Shown here one piece after another: positions 46,081 to 53,945 of a stretch of 64,000 nucleotides of DNA (within the stretch, counting starts at the first letter, position 1; each line of letters starts with the position of its first letter). The notes below the pieces were generated by a model. The model had not been told where the DNA came from. It did no database searches and was given only the letters and a program-made list of their open reading frames with translations. The position numbers and the translations under genes are program-made. The stretch is from Anaerolineae bacterium. GTDB taxonomy: Bacteria; Chloroflexota; Anaerolineae; Caldilineales; Caldilineaceae. The DNA is taken from NCBI GenBank assembly GCA_030432295.1, contig JAUIHI010000032.1, forward strand, positions 1-64,000, written 5' to 3'.

Positions 46081-46740
46081 ATGCTCGTCCGTGACTGCAT
46101 GACCCGCCACCCCATTCTCATCTCCCCCAACTGGTCCGCGTCCGAGGCCGAGCGGCTGATGTCGGAGAATCGCATCCGCCATCTACCGGTGGTAGAGGAC
46201 GGCAAGCGGCTGGTAGGGCTGATCACCCGCCAGCGCCTTTCGATGAAGCCGGAGATGCTGGGCAGCCTGAATGTCTGGGAAATCTCCCGCTATCTGGCCG
46301 ATCTGAAGGTCAAGCAGATTATGATCAAGCGCAAGTCGCTTGTCACTGTGGAGGAGGATCGCAGTGTGGAGCGGGCCGCTTCTCTGATGAGTGAAAACAG
46401 AATCGGCTGCCTGCCTGTGGTGGACGACGACGACGCGGTGGTCGGCGTCGTCACCGAAGTGGATATTTCCCGGGCCTTCCAGGAGATGCTGGGCCTGCCC
46501 GTGGATGGGCTGCGGATTACTGTGCGTATGCCCAACCGGCCCGGCGAATTTGCCAAATTGACCCGTGTCATCGCCGACCGGGGCTGGGGTGTGATGGGCA
46601 TCGGTACTTTCCCCTCCCGGCGCAACCCGGGCTTCTTCGATGCTGTGTTGAAAATCCCCAATGTGACCGAAGAAGAAGTGCGTGCTGAATTGAGCAAAAT
46701 CGAAGAACAGAAGGTGATAGACGTTCGTTCGATTGTCTGA
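46081..46740 (+). CDS. CBS-pair and ACT domain protein (AcuB-like)
   Basis: 219 residues from ATG 46081, AGGAG 7 nt before. Two CBS motifs (MTRHPILISPNWSASEAERLMSENRIRHLPVVE and SVERAASLMSENRIGCLPVVDDD) are followed by an ACT domain (GLRITVRMPNRPGEFAKLTRVIADRG). CBS pairs bind adenine nucleotides and ACT domains bind amino acids, so a ligand-sensing regulator is likely. It may share a transcript with the S41 proteases, although those have their own -10 boxes. Confidence 0.88.
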   Translation: MLVRDCMTRHPILISPNWSASEAERLMSENRIRHLPVVEDGKRLVGLITRQRLSMKPEMLGSLNVWEISRYLADLKVKQIMIKRKSLVTVEEDRSVERAASLMSENRIGCLPVVDDDDAVVGVVTEVDISRAFQEMLGLPVDGLRITVRMPNRPGEFAKLTRVIADRGWGVMGIGTFPSRRNPGFFDAVLKIPNVTEEEVRAELSKIEEQKVIDVRSIV

Positions 46741-46761
46741 TAACTCCGCTGCTTTGCCGTG

Positions 46762-46792
46762 GCAGTGCGTCGGTTTGCCACCGGCGCACTGC
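46762..46792. repeat. Hairpin GCAGTGCG/CGCACTGC
   Basis: 8-bp arms with an inner CGG/CCG pair between the CBS-ACT gene and the first S41 protease; possible weak terminator. Confidence 0.45.
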
Positions 46793-46864
46793 TGCTCCGC
46801 ACTCCCACTCCCACATTCCGCATTTCTGGTACGCTGCTTGCTTTTCCCCCTCTTTCCCCTGTGG

Positions 46865-46870
46865 TACAAT
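46865..46870 (+). promoter_or_regulatory. Extended -10 box before a leaderless GTG start
   Basis: CTGTGG-TACAAT followed after 6 nt by GTG 46877. Same spacing as at 14314 and 59101. Confidence 0.55.
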
Positions 46871-46876
46871 CCTCAA

Positions 46877-48121
46877 GTGAAATCGTTTGCTCGCGCCCTT
46901 CTGTATACGTTCTCTGCCCTCTTTCTTTTGACCGCGGCCTTTGCTGGCGGTTATTGGCTGCGGGGCGAAAGCGATCCGTTGCGGGTGGGCGAATCGGTGA
47001 GTGTGATGGCTGGGAATGTAGAGACGGGCGTGCCCGACGACGCCACCGCCGTCTGGAACGGGGAACTCTTCCGCCAGGTCTGGCTGCTGCTGGAGCAGGA
47101 TTATTACGGCGTAGATCCCAGCCTGACCCAGCGCACCTACGCCAGCGTGCGGGGATTGACCGATTCCTACGGCGACGCCTACACCCGCTTTCTGGAACCC
47201 CGGCCCCGGGAACTGGAGCGGGATCAGTTGCGGGGACGCTTTGGTGGCATCGGCGCGTGGATTGAAAGTGTCGAAGGCGGTGATACCGGCGGCTATGCCC
47301 TGCGTCCTATGCCTGGCAATCCGGCAGAAGCAGCCGGTGTGCTGGCCGGGGATCGGCTGGTGGGCATTGACGACACACCGGTCACCGCCGAGACCAGCAT
47401 CGACACAATCACAGCGTTGATCCGCGGGCCAGTGGATACAGAAGTCTGCCTGGACCTGTTGCGGGGTGAGCCTGGGGAGAATGTGCGCATCTGCGTTGTG
47501 CGGGCCGAGATCGAGACGCCCAGTGTGGAGTGGCGTCTGCTGGACGACACCCCTGACAGTACTGGGATTGGCTACCTGAAATTGAGCGTCTTCAGTGAGC
47601 GCTCGGCGGCTGAGATGGCCCAGGCTCTGGATGAATTGAGGGCTGATAGCGCGACCCGCTTTGTGCTGGACCTGCGGGGCAATCCCGGCGGACTGGTCAG
47701 CGCCGCGGTGGATGTGGCGGACATTTGGCTGGACGGCGGTGTGGTTTTCTATGAAGAGAAGGCCGATGGCAGCGAAAAGAGCTACCAGGCCGCAACGGGT
47801 GACAGGTCGGGCGGCGCGCCACTGGTGGTGATTGTGGATGGCGGCTCGGCCAGCGCCAGCGAGATTTTGGCGGGTGCTCTGCAGGACAGAGGACGGGCTA
47901 CGCTTCTGGGCGAAACCACTTTCGGCAAAGGCAGCGTCCAACTGGTCCACGAACTGGTGGACGGCAGCAGCCTCCACGTGACCAGCGCCCACTGGTTCAC
48001 CCCTAATCACCACGCGATCGAAGGGGTGGGGCTGACACCGGATTTAGTTATCGAAACAGGCAGCGATCCGTTGCCCCAGGCCGTGGAAGCGGTGATGGGG
48101 GTAGGGATCGGTGAAAAGTGA
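46877..48121 (+). CDS. S41 carboxyl-terminal processing protease (CtpA-like), first copy
   Basis: 414 residues from GTG 46877, which begins the signal anchor (VKSFARALLYTFSALFLLTAAFAGGYWL). Longer frames lack a leader. PDZ domain at about 130-210. The catalytic Ser is S326 in GSASASE and the Lys K351 in FGKGS. The family cleaves proteins at the C-terminal end outside the membrane, in photosystem or cell-wall maturation and quality control. A paralogue follows at 48223, and smpB, the trans-translation factor, follows that. Confidence 0.92.
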   Translation: MKSFARALLYTFSALFLLTAAFAGGYWLRGESDPLRVGESVSVMAGNVETGVPDDATAVWNGELFRQVWLLLEQDYYGVDPSLTQRTYASVRGLTDSYGDAYTRFLEPRPRELERDQLRGRFGGIGAWIESVEGGDTGGYALRPMPGNPAEAAGVLAGDRLVGIDDTPVTAETSIDTITALIRGPVDTEVCLDLLRGEPGENVRICVVRAEIETPSVEWRLLDDTPDSTGIGYLKLSVFSERSAAEMAQALDELRADSATRFVLDLRGNPGGLVSAAVDVADIWLDGGVVFYEEKADGSEKSYQAATGDRSGGAPLVVIVDGGSASASEILAGALQDRGRATLLGETTFGKGSVQLVHELVDGSSLHVTSAHWFTPNHHAIEGVGLTPDLVIETGSDPLPQAVEAVMGVGIGEK

Positions 48122-48222: not shown

Positions 48223-49530
48223 ATGAGCACTTCAGAGACACCCAACAAGCCCACGCGGGCGGATGGCAACGGCCTGTTGCTGCGCTATATTGCCATTGGC
48301 TGCGGGCTGCTGTTGGTGGTAGCCATTGCCTTTTCTGTCGGCACAGGGGTAGGTTTTGCCTTTGGCCGCTTCACCGGTGATGGCCCGCAGAACGCCTCGG
48401 CCCCTGTGGTTTCGACTGGTGACAATGGCCCGGCTGCCCCGGAGCGTGACCTGAGCGCGCAGGATATGGAGATATTCTGGGAGGCGATGGGTCTGTTGGA
48501 GCGGGATTTCTACGGCGATCTGCCTGGGGGCCAGGAACGCAGCTACGGCGCGATCCGGGGTGTGCTCGGCCTGCTCGACGATCCCAACACCAGCTTTATG
48601 GCTCCGGATCAGGCCAAGAGCTTCCTGGAAAGTATGGACGGCAGCTTCGAGGGCATCGGCGCAACTGTCGAATGGGTGGAAGAGCGGGGCGCGGTGCGTC
48701 TGGTGGAGCCTTTCGAGAATCAACCTGCCTGGAATGCGGGTCTGCGTCGCAACGATCTGGTCATTGCCATCGACGGTGCGCCCGTTTCAGAAATGGCCGA
48801 TCTGAATGTGGCTATCAGCAAAATCAAAGGACCGAAGGGTTCTTCGGTGGTGCTGACGATTGAGCGCCCCAGCACCGATGAGACCTTCGATGTCACTGTT
48901 GTGCGGGATGTGATTCAGATTCCCATCGTCTTCACCGACACCTACGGCCAGGACGACGACATCGCCTACATTCGCCTCAGCCGTTTCTCCGATGATTCCG
49001 GGCGGCGGGTGCGGGATGCGGTGGAGGAAGCGACCCGCAATAATCTGCGTGGGCTGATCTTTGATCTGCGGGGCAATCCCGGCGGTCTTCTGCGCGAAGC
49101 CGTGCGGGTTTCCAGCGTCTTCCTGGAGGACGAGCAGGTGTTGATCGAGCGCTTTAGCGACGGCTCCCAACAGATATACGACACAGAAGGGCAGGCGGCA
49201 GTGGATGCTGCCCTGCCGATTGTTCTGCTGGTGGATGAAGGCAGCGCCAGCGCCAGCGAGATTGTGGCCGGCGCATTGCAGGATGCAGGCCGGGCTGTGC
49301 TGATCGGCACAACCACCTTTGGCAAAGGCAGTGTGCAACTGCCACACACCCTCAGCGATGGCAGTATGATGCGGGTGACAATTGCCCGCTGGTACACACC
49401 CGCCGATCGTTCGATCGACAAGACCGGCCTGGACCCGGACATCGTTGTGGAGCTTACCGACGAACAGATCGAGGCCGATGAGGATCCCCAGTTGGATCGG
49501 GCTGTCGAACTATTGGAAACTGGACAATAA
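48223..49530 (+). CDS. S41 carboxyl-terminal processing protease (CtpA-like), second copy
   Basis: 435 residues from ATG 48223. N-terminal TM segment LLLRYIAIGCGLLLVVAIAFSVG. PDZ core GAVRLVEPFENQPAWNAGLRRNDLVIAIDG at about 155-185. Catalytic S343 (GSASASE) and K368 (FGKGS) are spaced 25 apart as in the first copy. It ends in TAATGG, overlapping the smpB start by one base, so translation is coupled. The pair may differ in substrate. Confidence 0.93.
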   Translation: MSTSETPNKPTRADGNGLLLRYIAIGCGLLLVVAIAFSVGTGVGFAFGRFTGDGPQNASAPVVSTGDNGPAAPERDLSAQDMEIFWEAMGLLERDFYGDLPGGQERSYGAIRGVLGLLDDPNTSFMAPDQAKSFLESMDGSFEGIGATVEWVEERGAVRLVEPFENQPAWNAGLRRNDLVIAIDGAPVSEMADLNVAISKIKGPKGSSVVLTIERPSTDETFDVTVVRDVIQIPIVFTDTYGQDDDIAYIRLSRFSDDSGRRVRDAVEEATRNNLRGLIFDLRGNPGGLLREAVRVSSVFLEDEQVLIERFSDGSQQIYDTEGQAAVDAALPIVLLVDEGSASASEIVAGALQDAGRAVLIGTTTFGKGSVQLPHTLSDGSMMRVTIARWYTPADRSIDKTGLDPDIVVELTDEQIEADEDPQLDRAVELLETGQ

Positions 49531-51636: not shown

Positions 51637-52548
51637 CTAGACTGACTCCCAGGGAATGGGGCTGACATCGTCGTGGCGCAGTCGGCGCTGCTCTGTCCGG
51701 TCCACTCGCATCAGCAATTTACAGGCTGGGTCCGGGCAGACGGCCCAGCTATCGGTCTCCATCCAGTCGGCTGGGTGGTTCTGGCGCTGCTTGGCAGGGA
51801 GGAGGGGGAGCACAGCTTGCAGGGCGTAGACGCAGAAGTGGCCGCCGGGTGGGAGCGAGAGGCTGCTGCTGTTGCGCAGATAGAAACTGTCGCCCACCCG
51901 CATATCACAGGTGCAATTGCCATCAATGGCTTCGACCACCACCGCCAGATCGTAGAGGGTGAAGTTGCCGTCTGCGTTGCTCTTTTTCTCTACCGTCGGA
52001 TGAACTGGCTGTCGATTCTTGCGCCAATGCAAAAAGTGATTGCTGGCCGCATAGAGCTGAAAACCGTTCTTTTGCAGAACCCGGGCCGAGGCGATATTCG
52101 TGTAGTTGGTCTCGGCAGTGACAGCGGTTACAGCCGGTTCCTCAAAAGCCCATTCGGTCATTGCCTGCACAGCTTCGGTCGCCAATCCCCGATTGCGGTA
52201 GGGCACGTCAAAACCGTAGCCCAACTCCACTTCACCCTCTGCATTGGCTGGCCCTTTGAAGCCAATCCCGCCCACAAATGTGGAATCCTCTTCCAATACA
52301 GCCGCCCAAAAGGTGTTCCAGATCGCATCGTTTGGTTCCTGGAGCATATAGTCCATGCCACGGGCGACATTCCTGTGCATCTCTTTTTCCAGCCGGTTGC
52401 CTGTGACTCTGGCCCCCAGCGAGCGTTCCAGCCCCGGGTAGTCGTCCAGTTGCATCTGCATCTGGGCCAAAGTGAGGGGAACCAGGCGCATCCGTTCGGT
52501 GTGCAGGGGGGCGTAGTTCTCCAGATGGGCCAGAATGTGTGCGATCAT
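51637..52548 (-). CDS. GNAT N-acetyltransferase fused to a TIGR04076-type domain
   Basis: 303 residues. ATG 52548 has GGGAGAGAG upstream and its start overlaps the TGA of the preceding gene (ATGA). The N-terminal half has GNAT features: VELGYGFDVPYRNRGLATEAVQAM (acetyl-CoA loop R-x-x-G-L-A) and VTAETNYTNIASARVLQKNGFQ. After residue about 190, YDLAVVVEAIDGNCTCDMRVGDSFYLRN with its downstream WMETDSWAVCPDPAC matches the TIGR04076 uncharacterised family. A fusion of an acetyltransferase with a cysteine-rich domain. Function unknown. Confidence 0.82.
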   Translation of the reverse strand: MIAHILAHLENYAPLHTERMRLVPLTLAQMQMQLDDYPGLERSLGARVTGNRLEKEMHRNVARGMDYMLQEPNDAIWNTFWAAVLEEDSTFVGGIGFKGPANAEGEVELGYGFDVPYRNRGLATEAVQAMTEWAFEEPAVTAVTAETNYTNIASARVLQKNGFQLYAASNHFLHWRKNRQPVHPTVEKKSNADGNFTLYDLAVVVEAIDGNCTCDMRVGDSFYLRNSSSLSLPPGGHFCVYALQAVLPLLPAKQRQNHPADWMETDSWAVCPDPACKLLMRVDRTEQRRLRHDDVSPIPWESV

Positions 52549-53129
52549 TGGCTCTCTCCCCAGGGACGTACAAAGCTTTCCGGTTTCACGCCCAGCCCGT
52601 TGGCGATGCGGGTGATGTAATTGAAATAGGCAATGACTTGGGTTGCGTCGTGGATGGCAACGTCGTCGAAGCCGTGGCCACGCAGAATGTCCAAATCTGC
52701 CGGAGAGACGTCGTGCTGGTGGCGGGTGAGCTTGACCGCGTGGCTGCACAGAGCGCGGTCAGCGTCGGTGAGCGCGGCTGTGCGCCAGTCCGCGGCGATG
52801 TTTTCCACCCAGGCGTCGGCTTCGTCAGGCGTGGCAAAGAGTGTCTCGACCTCGGCACGGAGGTCGTGGGCGTGGGCACGTCGTCAGTAGACGCAGCCCA
52901 ACTCCGCCGCCACAACCGTTGCCCGCATCTCTCGCTGGGCGCGGCTGAGGGGCGATCTGCCGTGCATAATCGAGCCGTACAGTTCCATACTGGTTTTCAG
53001 CGTGCGGGCGTTGAGGGACATAATCTGGACGATGCCCCAGACCCGCCCGGCCCGCTTGACGGCCTTGTCCAACTCAGATTTGAGCAGGCCCGTCGCCTGC
53101 TCCGGCAGAATCTGTGGAATCCACGGCAT
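52545..53129 (-). CDS. Peroxidase-related AhpD-like protein, probable selenoprotein (internal TGA = Sec82)
   Basis: 194 residues if the TGA at 52884-52886 is read as selenocysteine. ATG 53129 (MPWIPQILPEQATG) follows GAGGGA at 9 nt spacing. The family core PLSRAQREMRATVVAAELGC precedes C79-V80-Y81-U82-x-x-x-H86, which is the AhpD redox motif C-x-x-C-x-x-x-H with Cys replaced by TGA. The frame continues intact through ADRALCSHAVKLTR, AYFNYITRIANGLGV and ends at TGA 52545-52547. A hairpin (52847-52866) follows the TGA. The protein would act as an alkylhydroperoxidase-like redox enzyme. A nonsense mutation is the alternative. Confidence 0.88.
52847..52866 (-). promoter_or_regulatory. Candidate bacterial SECIS hairpin
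   Basis: In the mRNA, CGACCTC and GAGGTCG form a 7-bp perfect stem with the loop CGTGCC. The stem starts 17 nt after the TGA, and the loop's second base is G followed by U. Distance and loop resemble bacterial SECIS requirements. Confidence 0.6.
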
Positions 53130-53207: not shown

Positions 53208-53945
53208 TTATCCTACACTCACATCTGTCGGGTAGAGGTCGATGCGCTCCACATTGGCCCGCTGGGGTAGGCTGGCCGCAAAGACGACGGTCATCGCCAC
53301 ATCCTCTGCCTGCATCATTTTGGCCCGATCCTCGGCGGACGGGGGCTTGGGTCGCAGGTCCAGAATCGGGGTTGCGCCCACGCCGGGATTGATCGTGCAG
53401 GCCCGTACCATATGGGGGTTGCCCTCTTCGTTGGTGACGCGGGTGAGCGCGTGCATCCCCAGTTTGGACGCGCTGTAGGCCACACCTGCCAGCAGGCTGG
53501 GGTAGTTGGCCGCCTTGGAGCCGATATTGACGATTGTGCCGTCCCGCCGCTCTACCATCTCTGGCATGACAATTTTGGTGAAGAGCCAGGCGCTGGTCAG
53601 GTTGACGTTGATGATCTGATCCCACTCTTCGGTGGTGGTGGCGTCGATGCGCCGATGGGAGACATTCATCCCCGCGTTGTTGACCAGCACGTCGATGCGT
53701 CCCAATCCGGTGCGGGCCGCGGCGACTGTGGCTTCGATCTGGGCCTGCTCGCCCACATCACACGGGCAGACAATCGCTGTGCGCCCCATACTGCGGATGC
53801 GATTGGCCAGTGCTTCCAGTTTGTCCGCGCGCCGGGCCACCAGGGCCACATCTGCGCCTTCCTGAGCACAGGCCAGGGCAATAGCTTCGCCAAAGCCGCT
53901 GCTGGCTCCGGTGACAACAATCTTTTTGTTTTCCAGTCGATTCAT
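53208..53945 (-). CDS. Short-chain dehydrogenase/reductase (SDR)
   Basis: 245 residues. NAD(P) motif TGASSGFG at 12-19, NNAG at 89-92, S143, Y157 and K161 (Y-S-A-S-K) complete the catalytic site. AAAGGAT precedes ATG 53945. First gene of a likely minus-strand operon (SDR, AhpD-like protein, GNAT fusion). A classical oxidoreductase; substrate unknown. Confidence 0.9.
   Translation of the reverse strand: MNRLENKKIVVTGASSGFGEAIALACAQEGADVALVARRADKLEALANRIRSMGRTAIVCPCDVGEQAQIEATVAAARTGLGRIDVLVNNAGMNVSHRRIDATTTEEWDQIINVNLTSAWLFTKIVMPEMVERRDGTIVNIGSKAANYPSLLAGVAYSASKLGMHALTRVTNEEGNPHMVRACTINPGVGATPILDLRPKPPSAEDRAKMMQAEDVAMTVVFAASLPQRANVERIDLYPTDVSVG

Follow-up and report, generated by a model that had tools for sequence, protein, structure and literature searches.

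The window described here is a 64,000-nucleotide stretch of contig JAUIHI010000032.1, from a member of the Anaerolineae (Chloroflexota; Caldilineaceae). Its minus strand carries an AhpD-like gene with a TGA codon at one of the two positions of its predicted redox centre, lying between an SDR-family oxidoreductase and a GNAT-type acetyltransferase ORF. The features considered are as follows:

53208..53945, minus strand: SDR-family oxidoreductase, upstream of the AhpD-like gene on the same strand and adjoining it in several congeners.
53129-52545, minus strand: predicted AhpD-like selenoprotein gene, 194 amino acids including selenocysteine (Sec) at residue 82, with a terminal TGA stop at 52547-52545.
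52893..52895, minus strand: TGC codon of Cys79, the putative resolving partner in the CVYU motif, and Cys in every relative checked.
52886-52884, minus strand: in-frame predicted Sec-UGA codon, residue 82, at the second redox Cys position of the CxxC motif.
52866-52847, minus strand: predicted bacterial SECIS hairpin, with a 7-bp stem (CGACCUC/GAGGUCG) and a 6-nt apical loop (CGUGCC, 52859-52854).
51637..52548, minus strand: GNAT-type acetyltransferase ORF, downstream, with an ATG that overlaps the terminal TGA (ATGA) and an arrangement kept in congeners.

Retention of the SDR and GNAT neighbours is confined to the genus, and they therefore carry little information on function. Elsewhere in the window, adjacent plus-strand ORFs at 46733-48121 and 48223-49530 resemble, from inspection of their translations by eye, paralogous secreted PDZ/S41-type peptidases.

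If TGA is read as U, 53129-52545 translates into a continuous product, MPWIPQ...GCVY-U82-RRAHAHDL...GESQ, followed by the terminal TGA. The frame holds one internal TGA and no frameshift, as the original prediction had proposed, and this codon falls exactly where that prediction had placed it, on the second Cys of the C-x-x-C-x-x-x-H motif of the family. The active site accordingly reads C79-V-Y-U82-R-R-A-H86, a CxxU motif with a following His. The final stop codon is likewise TGA, a point absent from the earlier account. An ORF listing made under standard rules breaks the gene into a 101-aa ORF ending at the internal TGA and other overlapping ORFs; confirmation of the gene despite such splitting by standard callers corrects its annotation. 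That same splitting, together with the default meaning of TGA as a stop, is what would favour an ordinary CxxC AhpD-like gene inactivated by a nonsense mutation, or misread through an assembly error.

Comparison with relatives weighs heavily against a pseudogene of this kind. Within the genus, the gene was found in six of seven genomes (the source included), the seventh being an 86%-complete MAG, and each copy has exactly one internal TGA and is otherwise free of stops; the close relatives thus show none of the other disruptions by which decay might have been recognised. At family level, all 14 strong matches (52–99% identity, own genome included) carry one TGA, while weak matches (about 27–42% identity) lack it. 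In GTDB species genomes a scan found 80 loci; its search patterns derived from a version of the protein that has Cys at position 82, and could therefore introduce no bias towards TGA. TGA at column 82 and Cys at 79 were present in 93/93 loci that cover the column, at about 41–99% identity, a set that includes records fetched twice and comprises about 85 members distinct by sequence. The carriers belong to six or more phyla, among them Chloroflexota, Gemmatimonadota, Planctomycetota, Acidobacteriota, Actinomycetota and Myxococcota, and most of the genomes compared are MAGs. The remote homologues found first were all Cys (TGC or TGT) where they cover column 82 (8/8), which answers the proposed check of whether the column is Cys in relatives and TGA is kept in close strains. 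Because the TGA recurs at one column in 93/93 related loci, its origin by chance, which the original prediction had called unlikely, is excluded, and because independent assemblies of other species contain it, sequencing error can be dismissed. With no other stop in the frame and with both flanks conserved, a pseudogene or an error in the sequence was rejected, and we consider it highly improbable; constraint on the downstream hairpin at synonymous positions, set out below, argues in the same direction.

The predicted SECIS hairpin starts 17 nt past the TGA. The published bSECIS model specifies an apical loop of 3–9 nt, an upper stem of 4–16 bp, a G among the first two nucleotides of the loop, 16–37 nt from UGA to loop, and a minimum free energy of −7.5 or lower (PMC13188914). 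The hairpin lies within all of these limits, having a 6-nt loop that begins 24 nt past the UGA, seven base pairs, G at loop position 2, and an energy of −10.5 kcal/mol when folded alone. When 57 nt from the TGA were folded in relatives, most gave the same hairpin, with G at loop position 2 in 82/84 sequences. Among 30 divergent sequences, 98.1% of stem cells were paired, as against 20–43% when the partner strand was slid, and nine double-sided stem changes were observed, as against 2.3 in shuffles; RNAalifold returned the same helix unprompted. The covariation sits mainly in one base pair and the outer pair. Its main component, C-G to U-A, couples a synonymous Asp change (GAC/GAT) with GTC/ATC (Val/Ile), and as the Asp change is synonymous, constraint on the protein offers no easy explanation.

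Codon-level controls show constraint on the hairpin at synonymous sites. Fully paired stems occur in 63/84 sequences, whereas redrawing synonymous codons (500 draws) gave a mean of nine (maximum 21), and permuting synonymous codons within columns gave 51 (maximum 57). A phylogeny-corrected count of independent pair changes found about three that agree, none that oppose and one that is neutral, too few for significance, the test being under-powered because only about four independent changes fall on well-supported branches. A scan of the locus against Rfam gave no SECIS family, the only hits being chance snoRNA matches below the gathering score. A minority of distant relatives have no exact consensus hairpin or have it in a shifted register. 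In five Planctomycetota and Acidobacteriota members (L094, L100, L111, L113 and L115) the consensus hairpin is absent and another hairpin lies nearer the TGA, for example CGGGGAGGAUCUCCG; it is possible that the SECIS register shifts within one family in some members of these phyla.

The source genome (6.7 Mb in 61 contigs, with an estimated completeness of 100%) was searched for each component of the Sec machinery, and the complete set whose presence had been proposed as a check was found. The tRNA-Sec scores 66.9 bits, over its cut-off, and has the anticodon UCA (TCA); SelA scores 577.9 bits, over cut-off; SelB is over cut-off as one intact 640-aa ORF; and SelD is also over cut-off. The SelD gene (L020:1501-2493; contig C47:64444-65436) has one in-frame TGA of its own, in the motif GUASK (...CAG-U-ASK...), which we take to be the usual Sec/Cys site of SelD. 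A ‘UxxK’ entry agrees with this assignment (PMC9312934). Judged from its sequence, SelD is a second selenoprotein gene of this genome, and with the AhpD-like gene it brings to at least two the TGA-containing genes of known selenoprotein families found there. Sixteen genomes of distant TGA carriers, drawn from several phyla, gave selA matches in 14 cases, 13 of them over cut-off.

These findings also bear on whether the codon might have been reassigned, or be generally read through, so that Trp or Cys is incorporated instead of Sec. Recoding of TGA to Trp or Cys exists in other lineages, and this is what can be said for it here. Set against it are the terminal stop of the gene, itself TGA; the co-occurrence in one genome of tRNA-Sec(UCA), SelA, SelB and SelD; and the internal TGA itself, which occupies a redox Cys column and has a SECIS-like hairpin downstream of it. 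Codon reassignment was rejected on these grounds, and its probability is negligible. The preferred reading, to which we give a probability of roughly 97%, is that the gene encodes a 194-residue AhpD-like selenoprotein (CMD fold, TIGR01926) of Caldilineaceae-type Chloroflexota, with UGA read as Sec82 and a probable role in the reduction of peroxide or another substrate. The suggestion of a probable selenoprotein is thus upheld by the Sec machinery, by conservation of the TGA and by the SECIS hairpin that follows it. At the level of sequence, the recoding signal, the machinery, the conservation and the identity of the active-site residue are established, and from them we infer that Sec is actually inserted at residue 82.

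Against TIGR01926 (peroxidase-related enzyme), whose cut-off is 81.8 bits, residues 9–184 of the read-through product score 118.5 bits; the match spans the TGA, which bears out the proposed family match on either side of the codon; a Pfam CMD match covers residues 44–92. All 20 aligned members match the TIGR01926 model. AhpD-like proteins are indeed known bacterial selenoproteins, as the original prediction had stated: the 2005 Sargasso Sea selenoproteome of Zhang et al. included 27 genes for AhpD-like selenoproteins that have a CXXU motif (PMC1088965), and a 2026 review lists an ‘AhpD-like protein, TIGR01926, CxxU, MCB9421940.1’ (PMC13188914). The predicted Anaerolineae product fits this catalogued entry on all features compared, sharing with the AhpD-like CxxU family (TIGR01926 / COG2128) an NCBIfam family above cut-off, a CxxU motif whose second redox position is Sec, and a SECIS directly after the UGA; the likeness to MCB9421940.1 is drawn from such features, and the organism alone differs. 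It is distinct from the AhpD-related (seleno)protein NF041238 (CFYUT; Sargasso Sea ‘hypothetical protein 1’), with which it has in common a homologous domain and the CxxU site: it is about half the length of that model, and in a profile search scored 48.4 bits against a cut-off of 175, and so is not a member. As the AhpD-like TIGR01926 CxxU family is already catalogued, the gene is genuine but unexceptional as a new member of a selenoprotein family known since 2005. It gives this family a well-documented example from the Chloroflexota in which the SECIS is conserved, and leaves the general picture of selenium biology unchanged.

With regard to the active site, Glu67, Cys79, Sec82 and His86 show no variation across 20 divergent members, and together with Tyr81 they provide the five-residue Glu-Cys-His/Tyr-Cys-His relay. 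The corresponding residues are Glu36, Cys48, Tyr50, Cys51 and His55 in PA0269, and Glu118, Cys130, His132, Cys133 and His137 in Mycobacterium tuberculosis AhpD (PMC3141380), a correspondence that places Sec at the second relay Cys. The AlphaFold model is all-helical (pLDDT 89.6), and both the predicted fold and the sequence match the AhpD/peroxidase-related structures 2pfx, 2oyo and 6k40. These Cys-type proteins share the fold and the active-site layout, but have Cys where the Anaerolineae protein has predicted Sec, and are 27–31% identical to it.

A mechanism can be proposed in which the hairpin downstream of the in-frame UGA would recruit SelB carrying Sec-tRNA-Sec to the ribosome, so that Sec would enter at residue 82 in place of termination. 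In the CxxC centre, Sec82 would then stand in for the more C-terminal of the two redox Cys residues; Cys79 would be its resolving partner, and Glu67, Tyr81 and His86 would act as the proton relay. Sec82 would most likely reduce peroxide or another oxidised substrate, the selenolate attacking peroxide and closing with Cys79 to a selenenylsulfide (Se-S) intermediate, which a cellular thiol reductant would re-reduce. The peroxidase activity, the substrate and the reductant are putative assignments. A selenoprotein with a different function, such as a thiol-disulfide reductase, a dehalogenase, or a redox adaptor for a peroxiredoxin, is a less probable alternative that nonetheless deserves attention: the fold family holds other activities, the debrominase Bmp8 was also matched by the AlphaFold model, at a lower score, and in M. 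tuberculosis AhpD serves AhpC as an adaptor (PMC3141380). Annotation of the nearest structures as peroxidase-related or AhpD, and the presence of all five relay residues, favour peroxide reduction by the selenoprotein over these other roles.

The history of the Sec site was followed in two trees. In the tree of 93 rows, a single change separates Sec from Cys forms (support 88); a wider tree that includes remote Chloroflexota homologues requires three Sec/Cys changes, but long branches meet in it, and for this reason no claim of Sec gain or loss is drawn from it. Among the approximately 85 distinct members with identities of 41% and upwards, the Cys form was not found. We tentatively suggest, as a conjecture that may well prove too strong, that this large TIGR01926 clade, spanning at least six phyla, with Sec nearly fixed and a nearly invariant shared SECIS hairpin, represents an old and stably kept Sec enzyme whose chemistry is hard for Cys to perform, unlike the frequent recent Cys/Sec exchanges. 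A Gemmatimonadota copy (L119:3001-3571, 68% identity) aligns in a single frame only from residue 84 onward; sequencing error or decay may thus have shifted the reading frame of its first half. Some genomes contain two TGA-containing AhpD-like copies, including Anaerolineaceae BD1 (L070 and L074) as well as G203, G301 and G446.
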